DNA of 31,543 nucleotides from a virus. Location: the IMG/VR virus record IMGVR_UViG_3300005663_003099, positions 1 to 31,543 of that record. One strand, 5' to 3'. The notes below the pieces were generated by a model. It did not search any database and was not told where the DNA came from. It saw nothing but the letters and a program-made list of their open reading frames with translations. Shown here one piece after another: positions 19,784 through 31,543 of this stretch. Numbering within the stretch: position 1 is the stretch's first letter; each line of letters starts with the position of its first letter. The position numbers and the translations under genes were made by a program.

Positions 19784-19840
19784 GACTTAAAATCCCTCGG
19801 GGGTAACCCCGTGCCGGTTCGATTCCGGCTCCGGGCACCA
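19784..19840 (+). other. Attachment site: 3' fragment of tRNA-Leu (anticodon UAA)
   Basis: The sequence matches the 3' two-thirds of a tRNA-Leu: anticodon loop CTTAAAA and the 3' anticodon arm TCCC, then a long variable arm (CTCGGGGGTAACCCCGTG). The T arm is GCCGG-TTCGATT-CCGGC, and the acceptor half ends in CACCA. The 5' half is absent: upstream bases do not form the GCCCGG acceptor or D arm. It is therefore a core att repeat left by integration, with the intact tRNA gene expected at the other prophage end, left of this window. Confidence 0.85.
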
Positions 19841-19908
19841 TCTAGAACAAGCCTTCCAACCCTTTTTACACAATAACCTGCTCATGCAAGTTTGAAGTAA
19901 AATACCCC

Positions 19909-21279: not shown

Positions 21280-21531
21280 ATGTCCCATACTCCTGCCCAA
21301 GACGGCAACCTTACCGATAACGTCTCGTTCAACATGCCCAAGCGCTGGCTCCGTGCCAAGGAGACTGCCAAATATCTGGGCGTGTCCATCCCGCACCTCG
21401 CCCGCCTGCGTGAACTGAAGAAAGGCCCGCCGTATCGCAAGTTCGGCACCGTCGTTCTGTATGACATTCGCGAGCTGGATGCCTACGTAGAAACACTGCC
21501 TCACGTCGAGACTAAGGGTGGTGGCCTATGA
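21280..21531 (+). CDS. AlpA-like helix-turn-helix regulator
   Basis: 83 residues. The core Arg-Ala-Lys-Glu-Thr-Ala-Lys-Tyr-Leu-Gly-Val-Ser is the MerR/HTH_17 recognition unit. The wing Pro-Pro-Tyr-Arg-Lys-Phe-Gly-Thr-Val-Val-Leu-Tyr and the helix Ile-Arg-Glu-Leu-Asp-Ala-Tyr-Val complete an AlpA/excisionase-like fold. It overlaps the primase-helicase start by four bases (ATGA), so the two are co-expressed. In P4-like satellites such proteins switch on replication and excision genes. The dyad directly upstream is a natural candidate for autoregulation. Confidence 0.85.
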   Translation: MSHTPAQDGNLTDNVSFNMPKRWLRAKETAKYLGVSIPHLARLRELKKGPPYRKFGTVVLYDIRELDAYVETLPHVETKGGGL

Positions 21532-23969
21532 CCGCCGCCGCAAATGAAAGATGCCCCCGCCAGGGTGTGAACCTGGAAGGGGTCGCTAATGAAGTGAAGC
21601 TAGATCGACTGGTGCAAAATGAATCTTTCACTACGGAAGCCACTCAGCCAATCATCGATACCGCAGCCGCTGTCAGTTTCTTGCAGCGCTTCCATCCGGA
21701 CGGGCTGTGGTCGCTGACCGCTATTTCGCCGGACAAGAAAGTTGTTCAAACCGCGACCTTCACTCCTAAGCAGGAGTCCGCTTGCTGCCAGTGGATCAAC
21801 GACCGCAACGGTAAGCTGAATATCTACTTCAGCGCCAACCGGCCCATGCGCGACATGCGCAAGAAAGCCGAGAAGACGGATATCGGCGAGGCTTGCTGTC
21901 TTCACATAGACATCGACCCACGTGCTGGTGAGGACATCGGCGAAGAGCAGGAGCGAGCCTTGCGCTTGCTACGTGCAGCCAGCCCCGCACCCTCAGTCAT
22001 CGTCTTTTCGGGCGGTGGCTTTCAAGCCTTCTGGCGCTTGGCGGAGCCAGTGGGGATCGACGGCGACCCACTCCAGGCGGAGGACTTCGAGCGATACAAC
22101 ATTCACCTGGAACGCCAGTTCGGCGCGGACAACTGCCACAACGTCGACCGGATCATGCGCCTGCCGGGCACGATCAACCTTCCGGACGCGAAGAAGCTGA
22201 AAAAGGGGCGGAAGCCCGCCCTTGCCCGGCTGGTCGAGTTCAGCGAGAACGTCTACCCATTGTCGTCCTTCACTGCCGCGCCCAAGGTGCAGAAAGACGC
22301 GGGGTCCGGCTTCTCGGGGCGCTCAGTGGTGGTTTCGGGCAACGTCCAACGCCTGGATTCGGTTGATGATCTTGACCAGTGGGAGGCGCCTGACTGGCTG
22401 AAGGTACTCATCGTCCAAGGCAAAGACCCCGACGAGCCGCATAAATATCCCAGTCGCTCCGAAGCCTTATTTGCCTGTGTGTGCGAGTTGGTACGCCGGA
22501 GCGTCCCGGATGATGTCATTTTCTCAATCCTCACCGACGAGTCGTTCGGCATCGCTGAATCAGTAGTTGAACACAAGCGCCCTGAAAAATACGCGCTCCG
22601 CCAAATCGAACGCGCTCACGAAGACGCCATCAATCCTGTTTTGCGCGAGCTGAACGAGAGATTTGCTGTCATCGGCGACATGGGTGGTAAGTGCCGAATC
22701 ATCAGCGAGGTGTACGACGAAGGGCTCAAGCGGCACAAGATTAGTCGCCAGTCGTTCGAGGATTTCCGCAACCGCCACATGCATATCAAAGTTGCTGCTG
22801 GTGACGATGGCAAAGGCAACGTCCGGCATGCGAAGGCGGGCCACTGGTGGCTGGAGCAGCTGAACCGCCGCCAATACGACCGCATCGTGTTTCTGCCGGG
22901 GCGTGAGGTGTCTCCCAACGTCTACAACCTTTGGAAGGGCTTCGCCGTCGATGCAGTTCCTGGGGAGGGTCACCTACCGTTCCTCGATCACATCCGCATC
23001 AACGTCTGCCAAGGTAACGAAGAACACTATCGCTATCTGCTCGGGTGGATGGCCCGCACGGTGCAGCAGCCCGACAGCCCAGGTGAAGTGGCAATCGTCC
23101 TTCGCGGGCAACGCGGCACCGGCAAGTCATTCTTTGCGAAGGTGCTGGGAAATCTGTTTGGGCGACATTTCATGCAGGTCTCTGACCCGAAGCACTTGGT
23201 GGGCTCATTCAACGCTCACCTTCGCGATTGCGTGGTGCTCTTCGCAGACGAAGCGTTCTATGCGGGCGACAAAAAACATGAGTCGGTCCTGAAGATGATC
23301 ATCACTGAGGAAACACTCGTGGTCGAGGGCAAGGGAGTGGATGCAGAAATCAGCCCGAACTATCTCCATGTCCTCATGGCATCGAACTCGGACTGGGTTG
23401 TCCCCGCTGGTGAGTTCGAGCGTCGATTCTTCGTGTTGGATATGGGTAACGACCATCGCCAAGATCGGGACTATTTCCGTAGCTTGCGCGAAGGGCTCGA
23501 CACAGGCGGCATGGAAAATCTTCTTCATTACTTGCTGACCTACGACCTTTCGACCTACGAGGTTCGGGCCGTGCCCAGCACTAAGGCGCTTGAGGAACAG
23601 AAGGCATATTCCCTTGAGCCGTTCGAGCGCGAGCTGGTCGAGTGCGCTCAACTGGGCACCTTTCCGCAGTCCGTCTCCGAGGGCGGCACAGCACGCCCCA
23701 TCATCCACTGGAAGGGGGGCGCCGCTTACTTCTCGACGGAGGCATTCATGGCTCACGTCCGGCAAAAGTCCCGGGGTTGCTCGATCAACCCAACCATGGT
23801 CGGGCGGGACGCCAATAAGATCGGGCTACAGAAGGCACATGCTAATCCACGGGGATACTTCGTCGGATCACTACAGGAGTTCCGCGACAAGCTATCGCAG
23901 ACGGTCGCCGGGGTGGAATGGGATGCGGACATTGATGAATGGGTTGGGCTGGATAAGCCGGCCTTTTAA
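21528..23969 (+). CDS. Primase-helicase (AEP-type primase plus DUF5906/SF3-like ATPase)
   Basis: 813 residues. Residues 85-240 look like an archaeo-eukaryotic (RepB-like) primase: metal motif His-Ile-Asp-Ile-Asp (126-130), Ser-Gly-Gly-Gly (161-164), and Asp-Arg-Ile-Met-Arg-Leu-Pro-Gly-Thr-Ile-Asn (207-217). Residues 500-690 are an ATPase: Walker A Gly-Gln-Arg-Gly-Thr-Gly-Lys-Ser (527-534), Walker B with D574/E575, sensor N620, and Arg finger R632/R633. This is the DUF5906 pattern found in phages and satellites. It should prime and unwind DNA at a specific origin, and an origin-like region lies 80-330 bases downstream. Reading frame and motifs are intact. The protein is the functional equivalent of P4 alpha, with a different primase type. 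Confidence 0.93.
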   Translation: MTAAANERCPRQGVNLEGVANEVKLDRLVQNESFTTEATQPIIDTAAAVSFLQRFHPDGLWSLTAISPDKKVVQTATFTPKQESACCQWINDRNGKLNIYFSANRPMRDMRKKAEKTDIGEACCLHIDIDPRAGEDIGEEQERALRLLRAASPAPSVIVFSGGGFQAFWRLAEPVGIDGDPLQAEDFERYNIHLERQFGADNCHNVDRIMRLPGTINLPDAKKLKKGRKPALARLVEFSENVYPLSSFTAAPKVQKDAGSGFSGRSVVVSGNVQRLDSVDDLDQWEAPDWLKVLIVQGKDPDEPHKYPSRSEALFACVCELVRRSVPDDVIFSILTDESFGIAESVVEHKRPEKYALRQIERAHEDAINPVLRELNERFAVIGDMGGKCRIISEVYDEGLKRHKISRQSFEDFRNRHMHIKVAAGDDGKGNVRHAKAGHWWLEQLNRRQYDRIVFLPGREVSPNVYNLWKGFAVDAVPGEGHLPFLDHIRINVCQGNEEHYRYLLGWMARTVQQPDSPGEVAIVLRGQRGTGKSFFAKVLGNLFGRHFMQVSDPKHLVGSFNAHLRDCVVLFADEAFYAGDKKHESVLKMIITEETLVVEGKGVDAEISPNYLHVLMASNSDWVVPAGEFERRFFVLDMGNDHRQDRDYFRSLREGLDTGGMENLLHYLLTYDLSTYEVRAVPSTKALEEQKAYSLEPFERELVECAQLGTFPQSVSEGGTARPIIHWKGGAAYFSTEAFMAHVRQKSRGCSINPTMVGRDANKIGLQKAHANPRGYFVGSLQEFRDKLSQTVAGVEWDADIDEWVGLDKPAF

Positions 23970-23993
23970 TTCGGTGGGGGTGATAACGGTGAG

Positions 23994-24010
23994 GGGGCTT
24001 CGGCCCCTTT
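23994..24010 (+). terminator. Intrinsic terminator after the primase-helicase gene
   Basis: GGGGC-TTCG-GCCCC followed by TTT. A stable UUCG tetraloop hairpin 24 bases after the stop codon at 23969. The T tract is short. Confidence 0.75.
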
Positions 24011-24046
24011 CTGCTGTCTGGGCGGTTGCGCCGGGGTGGCTGGCCC

Positions 24047-24298
24047 AACCCGCAGCCGCATGCGGGTTTGCAACAGACCCGCAAGGCTCAATCCCTGTAG
24101 AGACCGGGCTTACAGCGGGTGCGCGGGTTTGCGCGTGTTGACTTAAGTCGCTAGGCCGAGAGCTGCCCTGGTGCGGGGTGGCGAGTTCTTTATTCTTTTA
24201 ATTATTAATAAAAAAAACTCGCTAAACCCGCCTTAAGCCCCGTCTCTACAGGGGTGCGGGTTTGCTGCGGGTAGGCCGAGCAAGCGGGTTGTACCCGC
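24047..24298. other. Candidate replication origin with nested inverted repeats and iterons
   Basis: GCGGGTTTGC occurs three times exactly (24062, 24123, 24256), with further GCGGGT/ACCCGC units at 24047, 24077, 24115, 24224, 24266 and a palindromic pair at 24284-24298. CCCTGTAGAGACCGGGCTTA (24093-24112) pairs with its inverted copy at 24234-24253, 19 of 20 positions. Inside it, GCGAGTT (24181-24187) pairs with AACTCGC (24216-24222) around a 28-base AT-rich core. Iterons, dyad and AT-rich unwinding element beside a primase-helicase are the standard parts of a replication origin. The wider noncoding gap is 23970-24598. Confidence 0.75.
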
Positions 24299-24572
24299 AA
24301 TGGGCATGGAGCCACCGGGTGGTGCATCTTCTGCGTTATCCATTTCAACTGACACTCTCGCGTCCGCACGCGAACAACTAGCCCCGTACGCAGTTCCTGG
24401 CCAGCTCTCCCAGCCCCGACGGCACCAACCAGCAAGGCACCCAGCCGCTGGCCCGCCTGGGCCGTGCCGTAGCTCCTCGGCCCGCCTAGGAATCCCGCCG
24501 GAATATCACTGGCAAGTTCGAGTTACCGCGCCGTGCCCGCCAGGTGAGGGATTCCAGCAGTATTCACCTGAA

Positions 24573-24598: not shown

Positions 24599-25120
24599 CT
24601 ACGGCTGGCGGTCTACTTCGCTCAAAAAGCGCTTCATCGCATGGAACGCTTTACTATCGTTGTTTCCATCAATTACGGCGTCCTCCGCATAACCGGACGT
24701 GGTGTTGACTCGAAGCCATGTCTTCCCAGACATGGTGATCTTGCGGACAAGACTCGTTGGCACGAGGAAACCTTTTCGTGATTCTTTAGTTGCAGCACCA
24801 AACTCGCTGAAGTTAGTGAATGTCTCCATGACGCGCAATTGGTACACCTCGCCATCAATATTCAGCTTTGCGCCGGTAATGGCGTTTATGCTGTTGAATA
24901 TGCTGACGACTAGGATCGTTTCTTCAGGTCGAGCGGCGTTCCAGTAAGCGCCAAGGCCGGTGCAAACCATCCCGGAGCAAGCATTGCCGTGTGGATTGAT
25001 CCGTATCACCGTCGCGTTATCAAAACCGCTATGCGATACAACGGGTCCGGTCCCGGATGTTGTCGAGCAACCGGATAAAAGGACTGTAAAAGCTATTGTT
25101 ACGAAAATTCCCTTCGTCAT
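24599..25120 (-). CDS. Predicted lipoprotein
   Basis: 173 residues with a classic lipoprotein signal: Met-Thr-Lys, a hydrophobic core Ile-Phe-Val-Thr-Ile-Ala-Phe-Thr-Val-Leu, and lipobox Leu-Ser-Gly-Cys with the lipidated Cys at 18. The mature part has two close Cys (Ala-Cys-Ser-Gly-Met-Val-Cys) and beta-rich sequence. It is transcribed against the rest of block 2 and is visibly more AT-rich than the replication genes. AAGGA precedes the ATG. A lone divergent lipoprotein in a prophage or satellite suggests a moron, for example superinfection exclusion, but no family match supports that. The gap 25121-25279 must hold its promoter and that of the next operon. Confidence 0.8.
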   Translation of the reverse strand: MTKGIFVTIAFTVLLSGCSTTSGTGPVVSHSGFDNATVIRINPHGNACSGMVCTGLGAYWNAARPEETILVVSIFNSINAITGAKLNIDGEVYQLRVMETFTNFSEFGAATKESRKGFLVPTSLVRKITMSGKTWLRVNTTSGYAEDAVIDGNNDSKAFHAMKRFLSEVDRQP

Positions 25121-25610: not shown

Positions 25611-26246
25611 ATGAGTATCAAACCTAAAACCGGAGGCGGTGGCCGCCCCGGCGCTCCGGTGGGCCGCAAGCCTAAGACGCCGGTGGCGAATGCTGCGATG
25701 ACCGACAAAAGGAAAGCTATATTCCTATCGGAGCTGAGTAAGCACGGGATCGTGAGCGCTGCCGCCCGTGCTGCCAGCCCACACGCTCAGGGCACTTGCG
25801 CACCTTCCTTCTACATCCTGCGCCGCAATGATCCGGAATTTGCAGCGGCCTGGGACGATGCCATCGAACAAGCCACGGGCAGCGTCGAACTGGAATTGCA
25901 CCGCCGCGCCGTCGAAGGTTACGAAGAACCCGTATACCAGAAAGGTGAATTGGTCGGCACAGTCACCAAATACAGCGACCGCTTGCTGGAAATCCGAGCC
26001 AAGGCGCTGATGCCGAACAAATACATCGAGCGGCGGGCCGTCGAACTTAGCGCGAACCTCAACGTAACCCAGGAGCTGTATGGCGGCCATGCGCTGACAT
26101 TGAAGCCAGAGGACGTTTTGTTGCTGGACGAGGACAAGCGCCAGCTGCTGCTGAGCCTGCTTACCGACATTGCCGTGGCACGGGGCGACCTTCGGGACGT
26201 TGAACCAGAGCCGGTGGGCCTGCTGGGGGTAGACGATGATCGGTGA
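25611..26246 (+). CDS. Terminase small subunit-like protein
   Basis: 211 residues from ATG 25611, chosen because the upstream in-frame start would overlap the previous gene and GGAGAGGG precedes this ATG. A basic Gly/Pro/Lys N-terminus is followed by a homeodomain-like HTH (about 28-75) with Phe-Leu-Ser-Glu-Leu-Ser-Lys-His-Gly-Ile-Val-Ser-Ala-Ala. Next come Asp-Pro-Glu-Phe-Ala-Ala-Ala-Trp-Asp and a helical region with Arg-Arg-Ala-Val-Glu-Gly-Tyr, Tyr-Ser-Asp-Arg-Leu-Leu-Glu and Asn-Lys-Tyr-Ile-Glu-Arg. This series is typical of phBC6A51-type small terminases. No large terminase accompanies it, a situation known from phage satellites that redirect a helper's packaging motor. Confidence 0.8.
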   Translation: MSIKPKTGGGGRPGAPVGRKPKTPVANAAMTDKRKAIFLSELSKHGIVSAAARAASPHAQGTCAPSFYILRRNDPEFAAAWDDAIEQATGSVELELHRRAVEGYEEPVYQKGELVGTVTKYSDRLLEIRAKALMPNKYIERRAVELSANLNVTQELYGGHALTLKPEDVLLLDEDKRQLLLSLLTDIAVARGDLRDVEPEPVGLLGVDDDR

Positions 26247-27341: not shown

Positions 27342-27706
27342 GCGACTTAGCGACTCTTTCCAATGAGGAACTGGCGCAGCGGATCTTCGACACGCTAACA
27401 GATACCGAGGCAGCCGCTCTTGGTTCTGCCTGTATGATCGCAAGCGCCCTGGGCCAGGACCGACCCGATGTGAAGACGGCTCGCGCCTGCTGCGAGCTGG
27501 TAGGCGAAAAGCCCGACCGTTTGATGGCCTTTCTTGGCTACGTCCCGCTAACGGGGCACCCGAACGGCTGGGTCAACGTCGAGAAAGGCTCGAACGGCCC
27601 CGGACTAGTCGGCAGCGAGCAGACCCTGGGCCTGTTTGTCTTCCGCCAGCTCGGAGGCGTTCTCCGAGCCAATCTGCGAACCAAGCAACCTTCTAAGGAG
27701 CAATGA
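27338..27706 (+). CDS. Unknown 122-residue protein
   Basis: The start overlaps the previous stop (ATGA) and GAGGG precedes it. Acidic helical N-terminus (Leu-Ser-Asn-Glu-Glu-Leu-Ala-Gln-Arg-Ile-Phe-Asp-Thr-Leu). The centre has several Cys (Ala-Arg-Ala-Cys-Cys-Glu-Leu) and a beta-rich end with Leu-Gly-Leu-Phe-Val-Phe. It is kept in the same transcript as its neighbours. No family recognised. Confidence 0.65.
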   Translation: MSDLATLSNEELAQRIFDTLTDTEAAALGSACMIASALGQDRPDVKTARACCELVGEKPDRLMAFLGYVPLTGHPNGWVNVEKGSNGPGLVGSEQTLGLFVFRQLGGVLRANLRTKQPSKEQ

Positions 27707-27708
27707 CA

Positions 27709-27990
27709 ATGCCGCAATTCATCTTGTACGCCGACCAACCCCAAACCCGCCGCGCCGACGGTGTGAACACTCTCGTAGTGGTCGCCGCTGACCCTGCATC
27801 CGCCCCGGCAGCGGCCCGCGCGCTCGTGCGTGGTGTTGCTCCGGACGCCTTCAATGACTTCCGAACCGTAGCCCTGGGCGCCGGAACCGAATTTGTTGTC
27901 GAGGGCTCGCCGCTTGTTGGTCGCCCGGACAACGCTGAAGGCTTCCCCACCCTTGGCCGTGGTGGCCAGCGGACGCTGACGCCTGCATAA
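27709..27990 (+). CDS. Unknown 93-residue protein, possible beta-fold
   Basis: The ATG at 27709 has AAGGAG at 8-base spacing, so it is preferred over ATG 27703. Compact and beta-rich: Gln-Phe-Ile-Leu-Tyr-Ala, Thr-Leu-Val-Val-Val-Ala-Ala-Asp, Glu-Phe-Val-Val-Glu-Gly. Ala/Pro helices lie between strands. It is the last gene of the TerS-like operon, followed by a terminator. Confidence 0.65.
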   Translation: MPQFILYADQPQTRRADGVNTLVVVAADPASAPAAARALVRGVAPDAFNDFRTVALGAGTEFVVEGSPLVGRPDNAEGFPTLGRGGQRTLTPA

Positions 27991-30433: not shown

Positions 30434-31543
30434 ATGAATTCTAGTGGTTTCGATTCGATTGTGGTGGACACCTCGATTTTTATCAGTAATGGCCTTCGAC
30501 TTGAGCGCGGACTGTTAGGGAAGCTATCGCAGTTTCAGCGCAGCCCGGTTGATCTGATACTGCCGGACGTCATCAGGAGCGAACTACAAAAGCATCTGGA
30601 GTCTAAAACAAAAGAAGTCAAGCTTAAGCTAGAGAGAGCGTTGAACGATGCAAGCGATCACTTGGCTAGCGAAGGAAATGCATCGGATGAGCACAGCGTT
30701 GCTGTCGCCGACATTCCGGCCTTTGTAGAAGGACGCATACGAGATTTTTGTAATCGGATCGGTGCAGTTCCCTTCGAGTGCGGGGTTCACGTATCGGTAA
30801 CCGAAGTTCTTTCTCGATATTTTTTGAGCGAAGCTCCTTTCGCTGAAACTGGGAGTAAAAAAGCGGAGTTTCCCGATGCGATTGTACTGATGGCGATCCA
30901 CAACTGGGCAGAAAAGGAAAACCGCGACGTACTGCTCGTTTCAAATGATAAAGGCTGGGAAAACTACTGCGCCTCGGCGAGCCGGTTGACATGCGTGGCC
31001 GACCTTTCCGAAGCGCTAGTCCTTTTCAACGAGACCAATGCGGTATATGAGTTTGTAGCTAGGCTTGAGAGCGAGCTGGACGCGGGTCGCGCTGTTTCGT
31101 TTACACGCCAGGTGGAGGAGGGACTTTCTCGAGCCTTAGACGGGATCACCCCAGAACAAGAAGCAGATTCTTACCTATATTGGGAACCAGATGGCTGCAG
31201 CGCTACATTCCAAAACTTCGCTTTGGTCGAAAATAAATTTTCTATAATCGACCAATACGAAGATTGGGTAGCGCTGTCTACCGTCGCAACCATCGGGATT
31301 GAAGCGGAAGGAGATTTTTCATTATCGGTTCACGATTCTATCGATGGAGATTATGTCCCGATGGGAGGAGTCACCGCCTCGGCAGAGGCCGTTTTCGAAT
31401 CGGAAATATTGATTACTGTATCTGGTGACATATTTGGATCGATTGACCAGCTGGAAGTGATCGACGTTGAAGTTCTTGATCCAATTACAAGCGTTGACTT
31501 CGGAACGATAGAACCTGATTTCGGGAACGACTATCACGACTAA
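30434..31543 (+). CDS. PIN-domain nuclease (DUF4935-like)
   Basis: 369 residues, with AGGGAGAAG 5 bases before the ATG; the stop is the last codon of the window. Residues 6-180 are a PIN fold with the acidic set D12 (Ile-Val-Val-Asp-Thr-Ser), E50 (Arg-Ser-Glu-Leu), D148 (Phe-Pro-Asp-Ala) and D172 (Ser-Asn-Asp-Lys-Gly-Trp). These match the four metal-binding positions of PIN ribonucleases and the DUF4935 pattern of longer PIN proteins. Residues 225-369 form an acidic beta-rich domain of unknown role. PIN proteins cut RNA, often in toxin-antitoxin or defence settings. No classical small antitoxin gene is adjacent, only the Cys/His-motif gene upstream. Confidence 0.88.
   Translation: MNSSGFDSIVVDTSIFISNGLRLERGLLGKLSQFQRSPVDLILPDVIRSELQKHLESKTKEVKLKLERALNDASDHLASEGNASDEHSVAVADIPAFVEGRIRDFCNRIGAVPFECGVHVSVTEVLSRYFLSEAPFAETGSKKAEFPDAIVLMAIHNWAEKENRDVLLVSNDKGWENYCASASRLTCVADLSEALVLFNETNAVYEFVARLESELDAGRAVSFTRQVEEGLSRALDGITPEQEADSYLYWEPDGCSATFQNFALVENKFSIIDQYEDWVALSTVATIGIEAEGDFSLSVHDSIDGDYVPMGGVTASAEAVFESEILITVSGDIFGSIDQLEVIDVEVLDPITSVDFGTIEPDFGNDYHD

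Follow-up and report, generated by a model that had tools for sequence, protein, structure and literature searches.

A candidate iteron-type replication origin behind a primase-helicase gene in a tRNA-Leu-integrated, phage-satellite-like element

The element and its primase-helicase

The window, i.e., the whole stretch of 31,543 nucleotides analysed here, holds one copy of a repeated tRNA-Leu(TAA) 3' end, the three copies starting at positions -351, 19785, and 33028 (in window coordinates, continued into the flanking DNA). Block 2 is an integrated element of 13,243 bp (19785-33027, plus one repeat). Its left attachment repeat, the 3' end of the tRNA-Leu gene, lies at 19785-19845 (plus strand), with the second copy at 33028-33087, beyond the window, and its integrase is encoded just past the window edge (31575-32849, minus strand). 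Domain and profile matches identify an AlpA-like HTH_17 protein, excisionase or regulator (21280-21531, plus strand), and a terminase-small-subunit-like (TerS-like) protein (25611-26246, plus strand; phrog_4044). A search of the block 2 ORFs other than a 95-aa one (27703-27990) found no TerL, capsid, or tail gene. A close relative, L006/L045, also adjoins a tRNA-Leu(taa) gene and has its integrase at the far end. Block 2 also has a lipoprotein-like cargo gene at 24599-25120 (minus strand; phrog_7678), absent from L006 and with a similar stretch at the matching place in L050, and a gene for a PIN_12-domain protein adjoining the integrase (30434-31543), possibly a cargo or defence gene.

Beside block 2 sits block 1 (-351 to 19845), which spans 20 kb and uses the same tRNA-Leu attachment site. 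It encodes AlpA-like, primase, helicase, HNH, TerS, TerL, capsid, portal, tail tube, and tape measure proteins, but has scarcely any space left for genes of lysis or of a tail tip. It may be a truncated prophage or else a satellite that forms capsids.

The protein Rep of block 2 (813 aa; 21528-23969, plus strand) combines a RepB-type primase domain, a DUF5906 helicase, and a C-terminal domain, according to profile matches, an alignment, and a structural model. Its profile matches are to RepB_primase (residues 88-230), to DUF5906 (residues 525-633), and, over residues 68-792, to phrog_1829 (DNA primase). In the AlphaFold model (mean pLDDT of 83), the fold matches those of the NrS-1 polymerase and of the SaPI5 primase-helicase PriRep1. 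In an alignment of 29 homologues, the columns of the primase DxD pair and of the Walker A lysine are invariant. The C-terminal domain (residues 680-813; 23565-23966, plus strand) is modelled as strand-helix-helix-hairpin-helix, a winged-helix-like arrangement; the fold search with this domain alone gave no significant match (best E of 0.13), the weak ones being to winged-helix domains and the SaPIbov1 Rep. In the rep gene of one relative, L039 (G091:C15:11566-12681), the N-terminal half is interrupted by an in-frame TAG.

Anatomy of the repeat cluster

Directly behind the 813-aa ORF, as a preliminary description of the sequence had noted, lies a cluster of short repeats at 24047-24298. That description counted at least nine GCGGGT-type units, three of them identical 10-mers; the cluster and the three 10-mers stand, and the exact count is ten. 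The units occur in both orientations between 24048 and 24298, five on each side of an AT-rich core. The left set (24048-24128) has GCGGGT at 24048(-), 24062(+), 24077(-), 24115(+), and 24123(+), and the right set (24226-24298) has it at 24226(-), 24256(+), 24267(+), 24284(+), and 24293(-). The whole window contains 23 GCGGGT, including these 10. Three of the ten units form the 10-mer GCGGGTTTGC, which has no other copy in the window. When two mismatches are allowed, GCGGGTTTGC is found 50 times in the window for 48.9 expected, which is background, so the signal is carried by the GCGGGT core.

The best 6-mer count in the 367-bp 3' flank of rep is 10, a value reached by none of 300 dinucleotide shuffles (mean maximum of 3.7). 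Across 71.5 kb of contiguous DNA around the window, 6-mers are nowhere else so densely clustered: in spans of 251 bp, the best count outside the cluster is 6, and no 6-mer but this one attains 10. The preliminary description had named a wide occurrence of the repeats in the host chromosome as evidence against an origin; in its 3.97 Mb, GCGGGTTTGC is present 17 times, with 3 copies in the cluster and 14 scattered. Pairs of TGCGGGT at most 30 nt apart occur at 7 sites of the chromosome, 2 of them in the cluster.

The AT-rich core (24186-24219), a putative melting site, contains the 30-mer with the highest AT content in the element (28/30). The nested inverted repeats reported around a 28-base AT-rich core are present. 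The outer arms (24093-24120 and 24226-24253) match at 19 of the 20 bases originally given and really extend over 28 nt (89% complementary), and the inner arms (24181-24187 and 24216-24222) match at 7/7 with 28 bases in between. The nearest relative has not preserved the inner arm as a perfect match, which makes the iterons, not the nested dyad, the conserved feature. The GC skew makes only small local swings over the element and is uninformative at this scale. Between the rep stop and the iterons, a GC-rich hairpin with a short T tail (23991-24010, plus strand) is a possible terminator that the terminator scan did not call; a similar hairpin is found in L006, L039, L049, and L050. Just downstream of the iterons, a conserved motif close to a DnaA box lies at 24336-24344; it reads TTATCCATT here and TTATCCACT in L049. 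Searches with the origin DNA against phages and plasmids gave no real match, and those in 298 family genomes gave only matches of ~30 bp, at chance level.

Natural exchanges of Rep C-termini and iterons

Eleven relatives share the layout of the window and carry, among them, four other iteron sequences. The five types found 3' of rep are GCGGGT (the window and L006, which keeps 9 iterons at 87% DNA identity), ACTTCC (L074), CGTAAC (L040), CGGGAA (L038, L051, L078, and L113), and CGGAAC (L039, L049, L050, and L121). In all 12 elements, the iteron type goes with the family to which the last ~125 aa of Rep belong, not with that of the first 360 aa, which contain the N-terminal primase. L078 and L049, for example, have different C-termini and different iterons in spite of 95% identity over the first 360 aa. 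The Rep of L074 is 87% identical to that of the window in the primase part and 75% in the helicase; its C-terminus belongs to the CGGGAA family, and its iteron is ACTTCC, present eight times.

The DNA similarity between the window and L074 (blastn) stops at 23603 (codon 692) and restarts at 24312, 14 nt past the end of the last iteron at 24298. These breakpoints delimit an exchange cassette (23604-24311, plus strand) made of the C-terminal codons of Rep and the putative origin. In the pairs L051/L050, L113/L121, and L078/L049, the N-terminal codons are 92-96% identical, while the helicase half and the iterons are exchanged; similarity restarts 326-353 bp past the stop codon, a few bases from the last iterons. 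Because the matches are interrupted from within rep to just beyond the last iteron, the end of Rep and the repeats move as one cassette, and it would be difficult to account for this if the two did not act together. Some changes of iteron reflect divergence instead of exchange, given that L040 (CGTAAC) shares 41-47% of the C-terminal domain with the CGGAAC-type elements. Related C-termini carry related iterons (CGGAAC and CGTAAC; ACTTCC and TTCCCG). The co-inheritance suggests that iteron specificity is carried by the C-terminal domain of Rep, which is thus the putative iteron-binding part of the protein.

Similar arrangements are found on small circular plasmids encoding a DUF5906 protein, each with its own repeats, in 3' iteron sets around AT tracts. 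They are clear in the Roseomonas plasmid (L068; 9.7 kb) and in pMP1 (L069; 7.6 kb), and weak in pMNOD07 (L070). On phage-type contigs, most of the rep homologues tested have no such iterons behind them, including those of the named phages Ab18 and Epa5.

The N-terminal part of the CGGGAA-type rep is identical in the genome of Gulbenkiania mobilis and in an IMG/VR contig (L113 and L051), and that of the CGGAAC-type rep is 99% identical between a Lysobacteraceae genome and another contig (L121 and L050). This indicates a recent spread across bacterial orders.

A second feature flanks the core. The near-palindromic motif CCCTGTAGAGACCGGG lies at 24093-24108, with a similar motif in the corresponding position in relatives that have other iterons, and its counterpart CCCCGTCTCTACAGGG is found in the sequence at 24238-24253. 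Even where the iterons differ, elements carry motifs resembling CCCTGTAGCTACAGGG at these positions to either side of the core, some copies matching the consensus at only 10-11 of 16 positions, which is near chance level. The 11-mer CCTGTAGAGAC is exactly common to the window, L006, L039, and L050.

Interpretation, alternatives, and known replicons

Several observations make 24047-24298 very probably the replication origin of block 2, a tRNA-Leu-integrated, phage-satellite-like element: how the cluster is built, how far its repeats exceed expectation, where in block 2 it lies, that it is conserved in relatives, and that iterons and Rep C-termini are inherited together. From these sequence data, we infer the binding, melting, and replication steps, as well as a satellite life-style and a helper. 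Once block 2 had excised as a circle, Rep would bind the ten GCGGGT iterons through its C-terminal domain, probably forming two helicase rings, with five iterons per side; its AAA+ helicase part would open the 93%-AT core and unwind outward; and the N-terminal primase domain would make primers, to be extended by a host or helper polymerase. That the 813-residue protein reads this locus as the origin of a satellite-like element, as first proposed, is the best-supported reading in view of the element's own attachment repeats and integrase, the tracking of iterons with C-termini in 12 elements, and the plasmid Reps with 3' iterons.

The TerS-like gene starts ~1.3 kb downstream, and pac sites can be marked by repeats, which would fit a packaging site (pac or cos) read by that protein. 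However, TerS is 83-97% identical across elements with differing iterons, the iterons vary together with the end of Rep, and plasmids lacking an annotated TerS share the rep-iteron layout. With TerS constant while the iterons change, we rejected this idea, which has very little chance of being right. A structured RNA, a terminator, or a transcription-control region, with the nested dyad acting as an RNA or DNA hairpin, seems equally implausible. The strand does fold better than shuffled sequences (z of -6.9), and a terminator-like stem overlaps 24162-24182, but folding is expected anyway from iterons in opposite orientations, a search of the region against Rfam gave no credible match, and the outer arms are direct, not inverted, in some relatives. 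A conserved hairpin was rejected because the iteron types have no common fold. Somewhat less improbable, if still clearly unlikely, is a former origin, inactive by now, in a decayed element. The element is integrated and its relative L039 has a stop codon inside rep, but the rep of the window is intact, with its primase and Walker residues in invariant columns, the ten iterons, the integrase, and the attachment repeats are all present, and the nine iterons of L006 have been retained.

Points against the iteron-Rep model are that some changes of iteron stem from divergence, that the C-terminal domain alone had no significant fold match, and that the near-palindromic pair is left unexplained. 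The origin might need two readers, the exchangeable C-terminal domain of Rep for the iterons and a constant protein of the host, the satellite, or a helper phage for the CCCTGTAGCTACAGGG-like pair; we regard this as doubtful. If true, the second reader could tie the replication of the satellite to its helper.

Read as an origin used by Rep, the locus appears to fit a replicon of the SaPI/PICI Rep-ori type in each testable respect: it is immediately 3' of the primase-helicase gene, with 5 + 5 iterons around the AT-richest 30-mer, and its iteron specificity, judged by co-inheritance, goes with the Rep C-terminal domain. This architecture is already known from SaPIs and Gram-negative PICIs; the iteron is new. 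The origins of Gram-negative (E. coli) PICIs have two iteron sets around an AT-rich region 3' of pri-rep, and their description includes a functional plasmid test (PMC6092414). Like those of EcCICFT073 and others, the origin of block 2 follows a fused primase-helicase, and the element resembles these small islands in its AlpA-like gene, its integrase, and the terS that is sometimes present (PMC6092414). Integrase and attachment repeats bound it as they bound islands of 10-15 kb (13.24 kb here), and its gene content agrees, with no capsid or TerL gene found, an AlpA-like regulator, and the optional terS. It differs by its new iteron GCGGGTTTGC and DUF5906-type Rep, and by its integrase, which in Gram-negative PICIs is at the left end with unidirectional transcription and here is at the far end, on the strand opposite to rep; in the relative L050, int is on the left and on the same strand as rep. 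It also shares its tRNA-Leu attachment site with block 1. Gram-negative PICIs use attachment sites that temperate prophages do not; block 1 has TerL, capsid, portal, and tape measure genes, but may itself be a satellite. Block 2 as a whole is thus PICI-like but not filed as a PICI, given the position and direction of its integrase and the shared attachment site.

The Rep of SaPIs reads a downstream origin through its C-terminal domain, and the SCCmec protein Cch2 likewise binds downstream repeats through its C-terminal domain (PMC7581432). Block 2 resembles the SaPI systems (SaPIbov1, SaPI5 PriRep1) in its origin 3' of rep, its two iteron sets, a C-terminal domain that probably serves as origin reader, and a predicted Rep fold matching 7ola and 7pds; it differs in host phylum, iteron sequence, and RepB-type primase domain, and a search of PDB sequences with the 813-aa Rep gave no match to SaPI Rep. 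As with Cch2, the Rep of block 2 would be a self-loading helicase that binds, through its C-terminal domain, repeats lying behind its gene, but SCCmec has only three iterons, places the primase function in a separate polymerase, and is a different element (PMC7581432). The NrS-1 polymerase and the primases of Mesyanzhinovviridae phages are homologous primase-helicases (that of Ab18 is 72% identical over residues 44-710) with another C-terminus and, in the phages examined, no iterons behind the gene. The AH14b satellite of Pseudomonas sp. ANT_H14 also has an integrase, an AlpA-like gene, and a primase, and no structural genes, but the primase is short and DnaG-like, the helicase is separate, there is no terminase gene, and no origin is mentioned in the available part of its description (PMC4936722).

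To the known Rep-ori type, the putative origin of the window adds the iteron GCGGGTTTGC and a clean series of natural domain swaps. This series of chimeras consists of near-identical elements that differ only in the helicase/C-terminal part of Rep and in the iterons, with five iteron sequences represented. Swapping ~125 codons could directly test the origin-recognition code of satellite primase-helicases. The series also suggests how satellites related to one another could use one tRNA-Leu site without incompatibility, namely through a change of replicon specificity.
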